DNA of 56,165 nt from an uncultured Bacteroidales bacterium (lineage in GTDB: Bacteria; Bacteroidota; Bacteroidia; Bacteroidales; Paludibacteraceae): assembly GCA_900321605.1 (NCBI GenBank), contig ONWR01000011.1, positions 1 to 56,165 on the forward strand, written 5' to 3'. The translations under genes and the position numbers were made by a program. Positions 28,232-53,108 of this stretch are shown piece by piece; within the stretch, counting starts at the first letter, position 1, and every line of letters starts with the position of its first letter. Under the pieces are notes generated by a model. The model did no database searches. It had not been told where the DNA came from and saw only the letters and a list, made by a program, of their open reading frames with translations.

Positions 28232-28263
28232 TTTGCATAATTCAGAAAAATGTTGTACCTTTG
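28232..28263 (+). promoter_or_regulatory. Promoter of the structured leader and LRR protein gene
   Basis: TTTG (28232-28235), 20-nt spacer, TACCTTTG (28256-28263). The transcript would have a leader of nearly 700 nt before the ATG at 28962. Confidence 0.85.
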
Positions 28264-28344
28264 CACGCAAATTGCGTGCGGAACAATAATCGTATCGTGA
28301 TTTCGCTGAACTCAGCAGCGTAAAAAAGTGAGCACATAGTATTT

Positions 28345-28545
28345 TAAAGGCGTTTATTGACGCTTGTTTTGGCACATTGGAATCCGGAAAATTCTTCAAC
28401 CCAAAACAAGATAGTGCAATAAGCGTCCTCGTGGGTATGTATTACCTCGTCTTCGCCCGTCTTAGGGCTGGAGGGTTAAGCATATCGGGCGTGGACGTTA
28501 TTGTTTATTCTTGTTGAAAGGTCATTTCCGGAACCTCAATGTGAA
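28345..28545 (+). ncRNA. Structured leader RNA, copy A
   Basis: A conserved architecture shared with 51999-52200. It has hairpin GCGT/ACGC in GGCGTTTATTGACGC (28349-28363) and stem CTTGTTTTGG (28363-28372)/CCAAAACAAG (28401-28410). A long central stem pairs CAATAA-G-CGTCC (28417-28428) with GGACGTTATTG (28493-28503), with an inner TATG/CATA and GCCC/GGGC hairpin. AACAAGA can instead pair with TCTTGTT (28509-28515), which suggests a switch. I cannot assign an Rfam family by eye; it may be a riboswitch-like leader or a free-standing small RNA. Confidence 0.55.
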
Positions 28546-28885
28546 GAATAAGCCTGAATAATGTTCGCGCTTTTGTTGTATATATGCCGTTATTGATACA
28601 TCGCAAGAAATGTACTCTCATTAAGAATGCAGACAAGTGGACATCCAAACACTTGACCGAGCGACGAGCGGGAGACGACCATGAATCGGAACAGGCGCAC
28701 CGCAGAGTGTCCGAGGGATAGTCAAGGAGTAAGTGCGCCGCACGAGTCCGCAGTAGCCCTCACCGCTACAAGGAAATAGAACTCCTTAAAGCCGAGACAA
28801 ACGGCACACAACAAAGTAAAAAAAATGTACTATTATTAAGATTCAAACAATAAAACAACAATTTTAATTAACCGCCAAACTCTGT
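28546..28885 (+). other. Remaining long leader upstream of LRR gene
   Basis: No gene. It contains a G+C-richer part (28670-28790) with possible pairing GGCGCAC (28695 region)/GTGCGCC (28734 region), then an A+T-rich tail. Part of it (CGCGCTTTTGTTGTATAT near 28564) resembles CGCTTTTTCGTGTATGT in the leader at 52228. Confidence 0.35.
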
Positions 28886-28916
28886 CCCCTCTCCTTGGGA
28901 GAGGGTTAGGGAGAGG
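28886..28916. repeat. Palindromic CCCTCTCC repeat in leader
   Basis: CCCTCTCC-TT-GGGAGAGGG followed by TTAGGGAGAGG. Same family as the element inside serS (8698-8727). Confidence 0.8.
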
Positions 28917-28920
28917 TCTT

Positions 28921-28961: not shown

Positions 28962-31439
28962 ATGAAAAAACTATTTACTCTATTATTTGCCATGGTGGTA
29001 AGTATAAACTTCATCCATGCGGATTTTGTCCAAAGTGTTATTGGACCAACTCAAACCATTACTTACCATTTCTATACAGATAGCCGTACCGCTGAAGTCG
29101 TTGGATTTGCAATGGTAACAGGTTCAGTTGTCATTCCCGAACAGGTTCTCTGGGCAGATATTTACTATACAGTTAAGGCTATCGGGGATAACGCTTTTAG
29201 GAATTGTATAAACATGACCTCAATAGAGATGCCCGATTTGGTGGAACGTATCGGAGATTGTGCTTTCTATGGTTGCTCAAATCTGACTGACATTACATTT
29301 CCTTTTAATAGATTGAAAAGCATAGGAAATCATGCTTTCATGTATTGCACTAGTTTGATATCCATAGCGATTCCAAACAGCGTCACAAGCATTGGAGATC
29401 ATGCTTTCGAAGGATGCACCGGTATGACCTCTGTGACTATTCCGAATAGCGTCACAAGCATTGGATATTGTGCTTTCTATGATTGCACCAGATTGACCTC
29501 TGTGACTATCGGCAATAACATCACAAGCATGGATGAGATGTCTTTTGCACGTTGCAATAGTGTGACATCTATCAATTTTACAGGAAGTATGAAGGATTGG
29601 TGCAATAAATTATGGAATCCAGGTCAAATTGACAATGGTAATGGTTACCAATTGTATATAAACGGTGTTTTACAGAAAAATATTGCTATCCCCAATAATG
29701 TCACCAGCATTGGAAATTGGGCTTTCAAAAATTGCGGCAGTTTGACATCTGTTACCATACCAAATAGCGTTACAAACATCGGAAATTATGCTTTCCAATT
29801 GTGCAAAGGTTTGACCTCAGTGACGATTCCGAATAGCGTTACAAGCATTGGGTATAGTGCTTTCCAATTGTGCACAGGTTTGACCTCTGTGACGATTCCG
29901 AATAGCGTTACAAGCATTGGGTATAGTGCTTTCAATGGTTGTAGTAGTTTGGACTCTCTTGCCTTTGAAAGCGAAACTCCTGCATCATTAGAATCGGCGA
30001 GTGCCTTTTATTCCACTAACGACTGCCCGCTCATTGTTCCTTGCTCAGCCGTCGATGCATACAAAACAGCATGGCCTACCTACGCTGATAGAATAACCTG
30101 CTCAGGAACTCAAGGCACTACAGTTGCCATCCCTACCGTGCAAGATCTTGCTACTGCCGGCTATGATGTAATAAACAATGTCGTGCTGTGTCTCCGTTTT
30201 ACGAACGATGCTACAGTCTGCAATGATATTTACGCGGTGGGTACATTCAATAACTGGGCAAAAGGAGAAGGAAACACAGAAGACTTTGCCAACTGCTCCA
30301 AGTTCGAGCCGCTTGCCGGCTTTGAAGGTTGGTATGCCGTAGAATTCCCCTATTCGGACAATGTACAAGGCAAGCCGGTACAAGCCAAGAGCAACGGTGC
30401 TTTCTCTTGGGAATACCAAAGCGGTGATGCAAACGCATGGACAAACAAAGGCGGTGCAGGTTCACAGACGGCTACTATATGGGCAGGATATAACAATGAA
30501 GCGAATATCTATTATCCCGCTCCGGGTTGCTATATTTACGAACTGGCATATTGGAAAAACCATAATTCTCCATGCGCTAATACCACGCATAACTATACCT
30601 TGCACATGTACGCACCGGATGCCTGCGAGGAGATGAAACCTGCTATCATCGGTAATTTCAATAACTGGAATACCGGTGTGGCGATGAAGGACACCACAGA
30701 TGCGCAGGGCAAAAAGATGTACACCATTACGATTGCCAGTGATGAAGGGCTGGTATTCAAATTCAGGGATGCTTCATATGACGATTGGAGCAATGAATTG
30801 CAAGAATTTCTGGAAGGATATAACGCATGGGCAACATTCAGTAATTTTATGATACCGGCAGCAACCCAAGACACAACGATTGTTTATGATTTCTCGGACA
30901 ACGACAAATACCGCTTCGCTCAATGCGGAAAGGAGGAAAATGTTATTGTTTGGTTGAGAGTCCCGACCGGAGCACCGGGCTATTATAACGGAGCAATCGA
31001 AATGGTTGTATATTCTGCCGGAGAACCGGCAACTATGCCAATGCTTTATTCTCCGGTAGATAATCTGTGGGCTGTAGAATTACAAGCCAAAGGAAGTGAT
31101 TATTTCTCGGTTCGGGAAGCGAACTCGGAAGATAATTATATTCTTGCTTATGTTCATTATTACTATAGTGACGGCTCGGATGAATATGTCTGGGAAACAT
31201 GGGGTACTACATTCCAACATTATTGGGAAAATGGTACGGGCGATTTTGCCGGATATAAGACAGCCATGATAGATCTGACAAATCCTGCTTCTTTCAAATG
31301 GGCTGTGTCGGCAATCGAAACAGACATAGAAAATGTACAAAGGGACAATGTACAATGTACCAAGGTTCTCCGTGATGGTCAAATCTACATCCTCCGTGGC
31401 AACAAAACCTATACCCTCCAAGGTCAAGAGGTCAAGTAA
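28962..31439 (+). CDS. BspA-like leucine-rich repeat surface protein
   Basis: An 825-residue secreted protein. After a signal peptide (LFTLLFAMVVSINFIHA), residues about 70-345 carry LRR_5 repeats of 23 residues (pattern IPNSVTSIGxxAFxxCxxLTSV). Two carbohydrate-binding-like beta domains follow (AVGTFNNWAKG, IIGNFNNWNTG) and a third beta segment. The extreme C-terminus KVLRDGQIYILRGNKTY and YTLQGQEVK is the tail shared with two other secreted proteins here. Before that tail, 31331-31364 encode ENVQRDNVQCT from a GTACAAA-type tract. Such proteins act in adhesion or glycan binding at the cell surface. A terminator follows the stop. Confidence 0.88.
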   Translation: MKKLFTLLFAMVVSINFIHADFVQSVIGPTQTITYHFYTDSRTAEVVGFAMVTGSVVIPEQVLWADIYYTVKAIGDNAFRNCINMTSIEMPDLVERIGDCAFYGCSNLTDITFPFNRLKSIGNHAFMYCTSLISIAIPNSVTSIGDHAFEGCTGMTSVTIPNSVTSIGYCAFYDCTRLTSVTIGNNITSMDEMSFARCNSVTSINFTGSMKDWCNKLWNPGQIDNGNGYQLYINGVLQKNIAIPNNVTSIGNWAFKNCGSLTSVTIPNSVTNIGNYAFQLCKGLTSVTIPNSVTSIGYSAFQLCTGLTSVTIPNSVTSIGYSAFNGCSSLDSLAFESETPASLESASAFYSTNDCPLIVPCSAVDAYKTAWPTYADRITCSGTQGTTVAIPTVQDLATAGYDVINNVVLCLRFTNDATVCNDIYAVGTFNNWAKGEGNTEDFANCSKFEPLAGFEGWYAVEFPYSDNVQGKPVQAKSNGAFSWEYQSGDANAWTNKGGAGSQTATIWAGYNNEANIYYPAPGCYIYELAYWKNHNSPCANTTHNYTLHMYAPDACEEMKPAIIGNFNNWNTGVAMKDTTDAQGKKMYTITIASDEGLVFKFRDASYDDWSNELQEFLEGYNAWATFSNFMIPAATQDTTIVYDFSDNDKYRFAQCGKEENVIVWLRVPTGAPGYYNGAIEMVVYSAGEPATMPMLYSPVDNLWAVELQAKGSDYFSVREANSEDNYILAYVHYYYSDGSDEYVWETWGTTFQHYWENGTGDFAGYKTAMIDLTNPASFKWAVSAIETDIENVQRDNVQCTKVLRDGQIYILRGNKTYTLQGQEVK
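29796..29933 (+). repeat. Near-identical 69-bp tandem LRR units
   Basis: Two consecutive 69-bp copies (29796-29864, 29865-29933) differ at two positions, each coding one 23-residue LRR. This implies recent duplication by recombination or slippage. Confidence 0.9.
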
Positions 31440-51503: not shown

Positions 51504-51632
51504 GTTTTTTGTCCAAATCTATACTTTTTACCCCACATTTGGAAGAAAAACCCGAGTTTTTTGTCCAAATCTATACTTTTTACCCAACATTTGGAAGAAA
51601 AACCCGAGTTTTTAGTCCAAATCCATCTTTCC
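51504..51632. repeat. 52-bp tandem repeats with internal inverted repeat
   Basis: A 52-bp unit starting GTTTTTTGTCCAAATC occurs twice (51504, 51556), with a third partial copy at 51608. Each full unit contains TCCAAAT...ATTTGGA, able to form a 7-bp stem. Too few copies, no spacers and no cas genes, so not a CRISPR array. Confidence 0.88.
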
Positions 51633-51908: not shown

Positions 51909-51940
51909 TTTGCACATATCAAAAATTATTACTAATTTTG
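51909..51940 (+). promoter_or_regulatory. Promoter of the second structured leader
   Basis: TTTG (51909-51912), 20-nt spacer, TAATTTTG (51933-51940); leader of about 400 nt to the ATG at 52344. Confidence 0.85.
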
Positions 51941-51998
51941 CAGCCGAATTTACGCCGGTACCGTTTTACACGGTGGACGGATGTGGGTTCTTTACATA

Positions 51999-52200
51999 TT
52001 GAATGGCGTTTATTGACGCTTTGTATTTGACGCGTTAAAAGCTTAGCACACTTTATAACATCAATCAAGTCAGAAGCAAAGTAACAGTTACGCCTACGGG
52101 TATGACTATTATACTCGCTCTGTATTTTCTTTACAGGCGTGTTGTCATATCGGCGTAGGTTTCATTGTTGTTTATTTGACTTGAGGGGCAAGTGCTAAGG
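51999..52200 (+). ncRNA. Structured leader RNA, copy B
   Basis: Shares GGCGTTTATTGACGC (52005-52019) with copy A. Then CTTTGTATTTGAC (52019-52031) pairs with GTCAGAAGCAAAG (52069-52081), 12 of 13 positions including G-U. The central stem is GCCTAC (52092-52096 region) with GTAGGT (52155-52160), the inner part TATGAC/GTCATA with apical CTGTA/TACAG. TCAAGTCA (52065-52072) can instead pair with TGACTTGA (52177-52184). The sequences differ from copy A while the pairing pattern is kept. Confidence 0.55.
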
Positions 52201-52289
52201 TCCTAACGCGTAGATGAGCAATAGCGAAGTCTGCGCTTTTTCGTGTATGTACATGATAACTAACAATCAACTTACAAACTAACAATAAA

Positions 52290-52327
52290 CGGAGGATGCC
52301 GAAAAGCCAAAAGTGAGTAGGCACAAA
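52290..52327 (+). promoter_or_regulatory. Conserved leader hairpin, copy 4
   Basis: CGGAGGATGCCGAAAA, GCC (52306-52308), loop AAAAGTGAGTA, GGC (52320-52322), ACAAA, start codon at 52344. Confidence 0.7.
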
Positions 52328-52343
52328 AAAATCCACTTACACA

Positions 52344-53108
52344 ATGAAAAAAATTATGTTATTCGCTACAGTAGTAGCAATGTCGTTGGCAATGGCTATG
52401 CCGGTTAATGCGCAGAGTCGCAAAGACAAAAAAGCAGCCAAGAAAGCTCAGTGGGAAATGGAGCAACAACAGCAACGTGAGGAGGCTGAGTTGCGTCACC
52501 AACTCCGCATGGACAGTATTGCCAATGCGAAAAAAGTAGCAGAGGAAAAGGCTGCTAAAGAAGAGGCTGAGCGTCGCGCAAAAGAAGCAGAAGAAAAAGC
52601 AAAACAGAAGAAGGCAGAGGAGGAAGCTGCTCTTCAAGAGGTAGAGCATGAAGAACCTTGCTCGGAGATGGATTACCCCAGCACCGAAGTACTGATGCGT
52701 GGTCATGGTATTGGCGTTGACCGCAACCAGCAATTCTCTATTGAAAAAGCTAAAGGCTATGCTATCAATGACCTTGCTCAACAAATCTCTTCAAAAGTGG
52801 AATCGTTGCTGAGATTGCAAAACCAGAGCTGGGATCAGAACGAGAACAATAACTATGCAGGTATGGCAAAGCAGGAGATAGAGATTGCCGTGCAGCAAAC
52901 AACCGGCTATAATATTGCTTGCCGCAAGACGATGACTTATTCTCAGAATAATGTTCGTTTGATGAAGACTTATATGATCATCGAGGTTAGCGCAGAGAAA
53001 GTACTTAAAGCAGCCTATGATGCTCTGCAGAAGAACAACCAAACAAAGATTGAAGAAAGCTTTGAGGACTTCCACAAAGATTTCAAAGAGCATTTCCAAG
53101 AATTGTAA
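52344..53108 (+). CDS. Secreted coiled-coil protein, LPP20-like C-terminal domain
   Basis: A 254-residue protein. The signal peptide (LFATVVAMSLAMAMPVNA) is followed by a highly charged coiled coil (residues 25-105, rich in Lys, Glu, Ala). A globular domain follows (GHGIGVDRNQQFSIEKAKGY, YAINDLAQQISSKVESLL, RKTMTYSQNNVRLMKTYMII) that resembles LPP20/DUF-type domains of envelope lipoproteins. Function unknown. It is transcribed from the long structured leader and followed by a cluster of secreted paralogues. Confidence 0.7.
   Translation: MKKIMLFATVVAMSLAMAMPVNAQSRKDKKAAKKAQWEMEQQQQREEAELRHQLRMDSIANAKKVAEEKAAKEEAERRAKEAEEKAKQKKAEEEAALQEVEHEEPCSEMDYPSTEVLMRGHGIGVDRNQQFSIEKAKGYAINDLAQQISSKVESLLRLQNQSWDQNENNNYAGMAKQEIEIAVQQTTGYNIACRKTMTYSQNNVRLMKTYMIIEVSAEKVLKAAYDALQKNNQTKIEESFEDFHKDFKEHFQEL

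Follow-up and report, generated by a model that had tools for sequence, protein, structure and literature searches.

A large structured leader RNA family of the Bacteroidales with features of a strand-exchange transcription attenuator

Background

In transcription attenuators of the trp type, one RNA strand can pair either with a partner upstream of it or with the terminator. Transcription riboswitches, including the multi-copy GEMM/c-di-GMP riboswitches, place a compact conserved fold with a pseudoknot and a loop-loop contact before a terminator/antiterminator. Leaders can also act constitutively, as put-like antitermination and 5' stabilisers exemplify. The FopS RNAs of Bacteroides are, in the description given for them, paralogous sRNAs that have a single-stranded 5' stretch and a terminator, act in trans and are deposited in Rfam (PMC11697453).

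The window analysed here is the whole 56,165-nt stretch of contig ONWR01000011.1, from an uncultured Bacteroidales bacterium of the Paludibacteraceae. It holds two elements, copy 1 and copy 2, both on the forward strand, which are members of one large structured-RNA leader family of about 310 nt, so far unnamed. The family resembles the trp-type leaders in its predicted strand exchange between an upstream partner and the terminator, but it differs from them by a pseudoknot, kissing loops, a third partner at the 5' end and many copies before unrelated genes; moreover, an unsystematic look noticed no leader peptide. With riboswitches of the GEMM/c-di-GMP type it shares the compact conserved fold, the pseudoknot, the loop-loop contact and the terminator/antiterminator, whereas it has no Rfam match and its downstream genes have no common pathway. 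FopS, as far as its description goes (PMC11697453), is likewise a multi-copy RNA family in Bacteroidales; the present family differs in that its leader is large and pseudoknotted and has no Rfam match; a folded leader of about 310 nt is not the single-stranded seed with a terminator hairpin that marks FopS.

Results and discussion

Comparison with known RNA families

At gathering score, Rfam 15 annotated only three tRNAs and DUF805b in the window, none of them on the elements. With the limit raised to E<=10 for both elements, nothing on them was better than about E 1, and the sub-threshold matches on or near them were to unrelated families (E about 1 to 8). A match to whalefall-1 (E 0.026) lies at 28885-28918, outside the element, and was rejected. 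Searches at gathering score gave only tRNA and DUF805b in 14 loci of the genus, and only tRNA, abiF and DUF805b, none on the element, in 19 loci from elsewhere. A known RNA family, such as the 6S or tmRNA that the first-pass annotation had named as a possible outcome, was therefore rejected for lack of any Rfam 15 match on the element in the window, the 14 genus loci and the 19 others. No description of the leader RNA was found in the titles and abstracts listed by searches of open-licence PubMed Central text. The 3,161 candidates reported in PMC8040213 may include fragments of it.

The DUF805b RNA (RF02914) lies downstream of four elements, copy 2 among them (52289-52323 in the window; loci L002, L014 and L018), and occurs again in locus L142. 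Since DUF805b-like sequence stands behind only 5 of 180 elements in a simple motif check, it is a separate 35-nt motif that follows the terminator, outside the conserved unit. An abiF RNA (RF03085; L102, 1254-1290) was also seen near the Prevotella ihumii element, upstream of it and on the other strand.

The two copies and the distribution of the family

The first-pass annotation had proposed that the window holds two copies of a new structured RNA with competing pairings, as in switches. Their homology is borne out by the block GGCGTTTATTGACGC, exact at 28349-28363 and 52005-52019, and the proposal as a whole by strong covariation in homologues together with the absence of an Rfam match on the element. 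With up to two mismatches this block occurs at 14 places in the genome of origin, compared with 6 for a reversed control pattern; the 6 of the 14 with no or one mismatch share a common element order and a 3' end resembling an intrinsic terminator. The extents first proposed were too short: with its 5' domain (28264..28345) and terminator the whole leader of copy 1 would cover about 28264-28574, and that of copy 2 about 51941-52241. The conserved core, comprising P0, P1, P1a, P2, the P3 pseudoknot and P4, lies at 28346..28537 in copy 1 and at 52002..52204 in copy 2. A stretch of about 55 nt, ttttgtccaaatctatactttttacc..., is present twice in a row 5' of copy 2 (window about 51505-51615).

Two covariance models were used. 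R1 was built from 20 sequences, after removal of pairs 75-80/180-185 from the RNAalifold structure of alignment A1, in which P1 was misaligned between subclasses; it scores copy 1 at 153.6 bits (E 3.1e-35, 28346-28507) and copy 2 at 112.7 bits (E 2.4e-25, 52002-52171), both copies being in its training set. R2 derives from alignment A2, which holds 44 of 105 cut-out elements, picked among the 69 of <=222 nt. These 105 are what remained of 120 pattern elements after 15 were set aside (5' start or terminator not located, or too near the locus end). The search pattern, made from divergent members, fixed part of strand c and part of the P4 loop, and it found at least 120 stretches in named genomes. 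At a limit of E 1, R2 recovers only the two copies in the window, copy 1 with 38.9 bits (E 2.2e-11) and copy 2 with 74.6 bits (E 3.1e-23); with R1 the matches that follow the two copies have E 0.2 to 0.93.

In its own genome R1 has 11 matches at E<=1.6e-5. Within the genus, 95 of 101 genomes (own included) match at E<=0.01, with 1 to 26 matches per genome, and all 42 of the 42 near-complete genomes carry matches. A chance likeness of the two copies is excluded because homologues occur in these 95 genomes. Across the order, R1 has matches in 25/247 genomes. The search of Bacteroidales genomes by covariance model, which the first-pass annotation had advised, gave with R2 52 of 294 sampled genomes (35 of 179 genera), eight candidates being scored per genome, so that copy numbers from it are lower bounds. 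In a phylum-wide sample R2 was positive in one of 345 genomes, the window's own. The genus, order and phylum searches used stricter filters, and absence in them is not proof. Among the matches listed are Prevotella, Bacteroides, Phocaeicola, Parabacteroides, Alistipes, Paraprevotella, Odoribacter, Muribaculaceae, Paludibacteraceae and other Bacteroidales or Bacteroidia; Bacteroides caecigallinarum and Paraprevotella xylaniphila are carriers that can be cultured. Also among the matches listed, locus L116 is titled Firmicutes, perhaps through misbinning, and L177 only 'uncultured bacterium'.

Two stretches were found in viral_contigs, a typical element matches 2 of 50,697 phage records, and copy 2 has no match in the phage records; with so few phage matches, the idea of a mainly phage-borne family was rejected. 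Among plasmids, 3 of 72,556 records carry the element. Two plasmid elements, L253 5001-5200 and L254 4849-5060 (Phocaeicola dorei and Bacteroides finegoldii), lie directly 5' of a gene annotated as hypothetical.

Architecture and covariation of the fold

The first-pass annotation regarded a lack of covariation in further homologues as fatal to its proposal; the mutually exclusive helices, P3 and the loop-loop kiss all covary. Covariation across the aligned sequences supports a hairpin P0, a stem P1 with a capped arm, a long stem P2, an 8-bp pseudoknot, a kiss between two loops and a terminator-like end. In the A2 structure (P0, P1, P1a, P2, P4 and the kiss) 88.2% of cells are paired, against 84.1 in shuffled alignments and 36-51 with slid partners; 26 of its 54 pairs change on both sides (shuffled mean 17.5), and none of 500 shuffles reaches either the paired-cell or the both-side-change value. 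Helices are also kept through G-U pairs. The stems first named are present, namely CTTGTTTTGG with CCAAAACAAG in copy 1 (28363-28372 with 28401-28410) and CTTTGTATTTGAC with GTCAGAAGCAAAG in copy 2 (52019-52031 with 52069-52081), while CGTCC/GGACG and CCTAC/GTAGG form part of stem P2. The internal loop of P2 is conserved (GGGTATG / CATATCGGCGTGG).

In 76 of 79 distinct elements 6-9 nt of the P1a loop are complementary to the P4 loop, the sequences being as varied as CTTCGCA/TGCGAAG, TCTCGCA/TGCGAGA, TCCGGAAA/TTTCCGGA, CCTGAGAAA/TTTCTCAGG and others. Own partners form 7.27 bp and swapped ones 4.89 bp (0/5000 permutations, n=79); in A2, 99.7% of the kiss cells are paired and 4 of 7 pairs change on both sides. 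Copy 1 has TCCGGAAA in the apical hairpin P1a (28383..28390) and TTTCCGGA in hairpin P4 (28525..28532); copy 2 has CTTAGCAC (52042..52049) and its partner GTGCTAAG (52192-52199). The three exceptions are L086, where the 3' part is missing, a degenerate tandem copy, and L056, where the loops are mismatched. In L056 (1471-1662) the P1a loop is of one kissing type and the P4 loop of another (TCCGGAAA vs TTGCAGG), and this element is perhaps a recombinant between paralogous elements. In L086 (1501-1678) other sequence replaces the 3' part after P2. In L021 (2134-2321, minus strand), some 730 nt away from a full element, unrelated sequence takes over after an AAAGGCGTTTATTGACG block, which is possibly a truncated copy.

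Pseudoknot P3 is formed by the stretch that separates P1a from the P1 3' arm and the stretch that follows P2. Own arms form 8.0 bp and swapped arms 4.3 (0/5000, n=44), the own partner being best or tied in 38 of 44 elements. In copy 2 its arms are TCAAGTCA (52065..52072) and TGACTTGA (52177-52184), a pairing which the first-pass annotation had already picked out as an alternative to the first stem and which has turned out to be a conserved pseudoknot. The pairing offered as its counterpart in copy 1, AACAAGA/TCTTGTT, is not conserved and was rejected as a homologue, the aligned position being occupied by TTCAAC (28395..28400) and GTTGAA (28513-28518).

Predicted strand exchange around the 3' strand of P2

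Exchange involves mainly other strands than those first named, namely the two strands of P2, the terminator and the 5' end. The 3' strand of P2 has three alternative partners, the P2 5' strand, the whole terminator and the leader 5' end. Strand c, formed by this 3' strand and the next 7 nt, pairs with b (GGTAGATGCC, the P2 5' strand) or with the entire terminator d, and in many elements it is also complementary to z, the leader 5' end (CCACGCCGA or GCAGAAGCCC types). Strand b can in turn pair with strand a (GGCGTTTACT), among the most conserved blocks. The pairings b:c, c:d and z:c exclude one another at least partly, and the same is true of a:b and b:c; every one of these pairings is retained.

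In copy 1, strand a (28347..28358) pairs with itself as P0 or with b (28416..28431), and c (28490..28511) has as partner b or, over its whole length, the terminator-like hairpin and T run of d (28544..28574); strand z, in the 5' domain at about 28282-28308, can pair with the P2 3' strand, weakly. The duplex energies are -22.5 for c:d, -15.5 for b:c, -10.6 for a:b and -10.9 kcal/mol for the weak z:c. In copy 2, b lies at 52081..52098, c at 52154..52178 and d at 52208..52241, where a 7-bp terminator stem (GCGTAGA/TCTGCGC) is followed by a T run (52237-52241). Its strand z, in the 5' domain (51939..51961), can pair with 52147-52171 at -22.8 kcal/mol; z begins within the -7 motif, and its initial bases may lie outside the transcript. 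The remaining energies of copy 2 are -23.0 for c:d, -14.6 for b:c and -8.4 kcal/mol for a short a:b.

The segment after P2 forms 10.5 bp with its own terminator region and 8.1 bp with swapped ones (0/5000, n=77, without L086 and the second L031 element), and forcing this pairing exposes a global alternative fold. In duplex energies (n=102 of 103), own pairings beat swapped ones for a:b, b:c, c:d and 5' domain:c (0/5000 each), and the controls gave 3850 (5' domain:b), 2824 (5' domain:d), 1032 (a:c) and 4232 (b:d) of 5000. A second set of 75, mostly covariance-model matches with a few from patterns or BLAST, gave 0/5000 for each of a:b, b:c and c:d. These swap tests ignore phylogeny, and thinning to <72% identity lessens the effect of kinship and does not remove it. 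So thinned, 38 of the 102 gave 0/5000 for all four pairings, and 26 of the 75 gave 0 for a:b, b:c and c:d and 11 of 5000 for 5' domain:c. The thinned controls b:d (3926 and 2165 of 5000 for n=26 and n=38) and a:c (2709 and 1804) were not significant; 5' domain:b gave 209 and 3460, of which the 209 counts against a reading by strand exchange. The test of b:c is partly circular, this pairing being in both search models; neither model contains a:b, c:d, 5' domain:c, P3 or the kiss. The 75-element and thinned tests did without L086, the second L031 element, L090 and L093, and L153:4590 was left out of the n=102 and thinned swap tests and of the T-run and neighbour comparison.

Folded with pseudoknots ignored, the terminator state is more stable than the forced antiterminator, the median difference being 5.5 kcal/mol (IQR 2.1-8.1) in 98 of the 105 elements, a set without those having <7 bp of P5 or a short tail. 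By these calculations the two forced states would be fairly close in energy; that the terminator state is the more stable one without pseudoknots counts against an attenuator.

Promoter, terminator and downstream genes

The promoters first claimed for both copies are supported by TACCTTTG (28256..28263, of the form TAnnTTTG) before copy 1 and TAATTTTG (51933..51940) before copy 2, which we take to be -7 motifs of the Bacteroidetes type. The TAnnTTTG motif lies within -130..-60 of the core, mostly at -61 to -80, in 69 of 103 elements, compared with 10 of 103 in a control interval, two of the 105 elements being left out as having no upstream sequence. The exact motif is absent in 34/103, and with one mismatch allowed the counts are 82 and 50 of 103; both points count against the attenuator reading. 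At the other end, a T run follows P4 by 25-60 nt in 172 of 179 elements and in none within a control stretch of the core; it was found in 76/79 of a mostly model-found set and in 99/103 of the other set, a terminator-like sequence having been required when the 105 named elements were cut out.

The nearest downstream ORF (>=90 aa) is co-directional for 93 of these 105 elements, opposite for 4 and missing for 8; upstream the figures are 59, 39 and 7. The distance from terminator to ATG has a median of 72 nt and is <=100 nt in 71 of 93, and a -7 motif stands in this gap in only 6 of 93. Of the 11 copies in the window's own genome, 9 lack a -7 motif ahead of the next ORF. An intrinsic terminator thus lies 5' of a same-strand gene (T run in 172/179, 93 of 97 ORFs co-directional), as in an attenuator. 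The choice between sRNA and leader, which the first-pass annotation had put, resolves mostly to leader, given how often the next ORF runs in the same direction (93 of 97), how near it lies (median 72 nt) and how seldom a -7 motif intervenes (6 of 93). Its 'far upstream' is at odds with this family-wide distance; the ORF begins about 100 nt after copy 2 and about 390 nt after copy 1. In copy 1 this distance, along with a weak terminator stem, counts against the attenuator reading.

Both window genes encode proteins with a signal-peptide-like start. Copy 1 precedes an 825-aa BspA-type leucine-rich repeat protein (28962..31439, forward strand; Pfam LRR_5, 2.5e-72) and copy 2 a 254-aa protein (52344..53108, forward strand) with no Pfam match at 0.001. 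The link with secreted proteins noted in the first place holds as a tendency only: a rough hydrophobicity rule assigns such starts to 53 of 93 downstream proteins and to 243 of 621 other ORFs.

Possible mode of action

From the sequences, the element is probably a cis-acting transcription attenuator, riboswitch-like, that works by strand exchange around c. This reading is favoured because strand exchange is combined with a terminator before a co-directional gene and the conserved internal loop of P2 is a natural sensing site; the exclusive antiterminator pairing c:d is conserved, with 0/5000 at n=75, 102, 26 and 38. As a rule the element would be the 5' leader of the next gene, in the order promoter, RNA of about 310 nt and intrinsic terminator just before the gene. 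When c pairs with b in P2, held by P3 and the P1a-P4 kiss, the terminator d would fold and transcription would stop. Pairing of c with z at the leader 5' end would likewise leave d free, and transcription would stop. In the other state, a c:d helix of about 25 nt would occupy both arms of the terminator and a would occupy b, so that the terminator would be blocked and the gene read. The signal most likely stabilises or loosens the internal loop of P2 and would thereby set the balance. Three points are inferred: regulation of termination, the state favoured by the signal, and a small molecule as the signal.

The 93 downstream proteins fall into 71 Pfam families, the commonest being LRR_5 with 7 proteins, and 85 PADLOC profiles were matched, of which the 25 listed (restriction, SNF2/helicase, dynamin types and others) match 1 or 2 members each. 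The single downstream pathway typical of riboswitches is thus not seen, and genes without a common function are unusual for a metabolite riboswitch, which counts against the attenuator reading. Such diversity would suit a variant of it in which a protein or small RNA, instead of a small molecule, sets the attenuator in trans, as an antiterminator or as an antisense to the P3 arms or the P2 tip, and so would the P3 arms, hypervariable yet complementary, and the variable tip of P2. We hold this variant to be possible, if rather doubtful, as much of the strongest conservation is in the P2 internal loop and the exchanging strands, as for a ligand pocket.

Free-standing, terminated and trans-acting small RNAs, paralogous and FopS-like in outline, with the downstream gene incidental, would account for the promoter motif at a preferred distance, the own terminator and the many copies per genome. 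In addition, locus L220 (2900-3730; own genome, contig 22) has two tandem elements with separate promoter motifs and terminators, the second element being degenerate in P4, and a third promoter motif before the gene. These tandem copies could be free-standing RNAs, which counts against the attenuator reading. Nevertheless, the short-range co-directional link to a gene and the covarying exclusive pairing with the terminator make small RNAs of this kind an unlikely explanation for the family.

Similarity between elements ends <=60 nt after P4, about at the terminator end, in 46 of the best 60 of 161 pairs; the other 14 of these extend further, four being the same stretch against itself. Of 41 pairs with >=85% identity, 29 precede proteins that do not match each other by BLASTP, the ORFs being picked crudely. 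Similar leaders before unrelated genes, and downstream genes without a common pathway, would be expected if the folded leader acted constitutively on RNA polymerase or insulated the mRNA, with no sensing at all. We regard this as quite improbable, since it leaves the covariation of several exclusive partners of c unexplained. The end of a mobile DNA element or a repeat at the DNA level, with no RNA, would fit the similar elements before unrelated proteins and their common point of divergence, but it is extremely improbable given the promoter-to-terminator order on one strand and the helices kept through G-U pairs.

Conclusions

The attenuator reading can be carried further, to a tentative and at present rather speculative proposal: the leaders may form one sensor system of the Bacteroidales. 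Its unit would be a promoter-leader-terminator cassette that spreads by copying between genes and reaches up to dozens per genome. By way of a hub strand with three competing partners, a single signal sensed by the RNA would govern accessory genes that are otherwise unrelated (surface proteins, restriction and helicase-type defence genes, regulators). The exchanging strands, the pseudoknot and the kissing loops give direct predictions that can be tested by mutation. The common signal, if there is any, is open to experiment, since in vitro screening of the RNA is feasible. In mammalian guts the Bacteroidales are major members of the community, and little is known of how their accessory genes are controlled. 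A leader with up to 26 matches per genome, no match in Rfam and a seemingly modular build would be a genome-wide layer of control.
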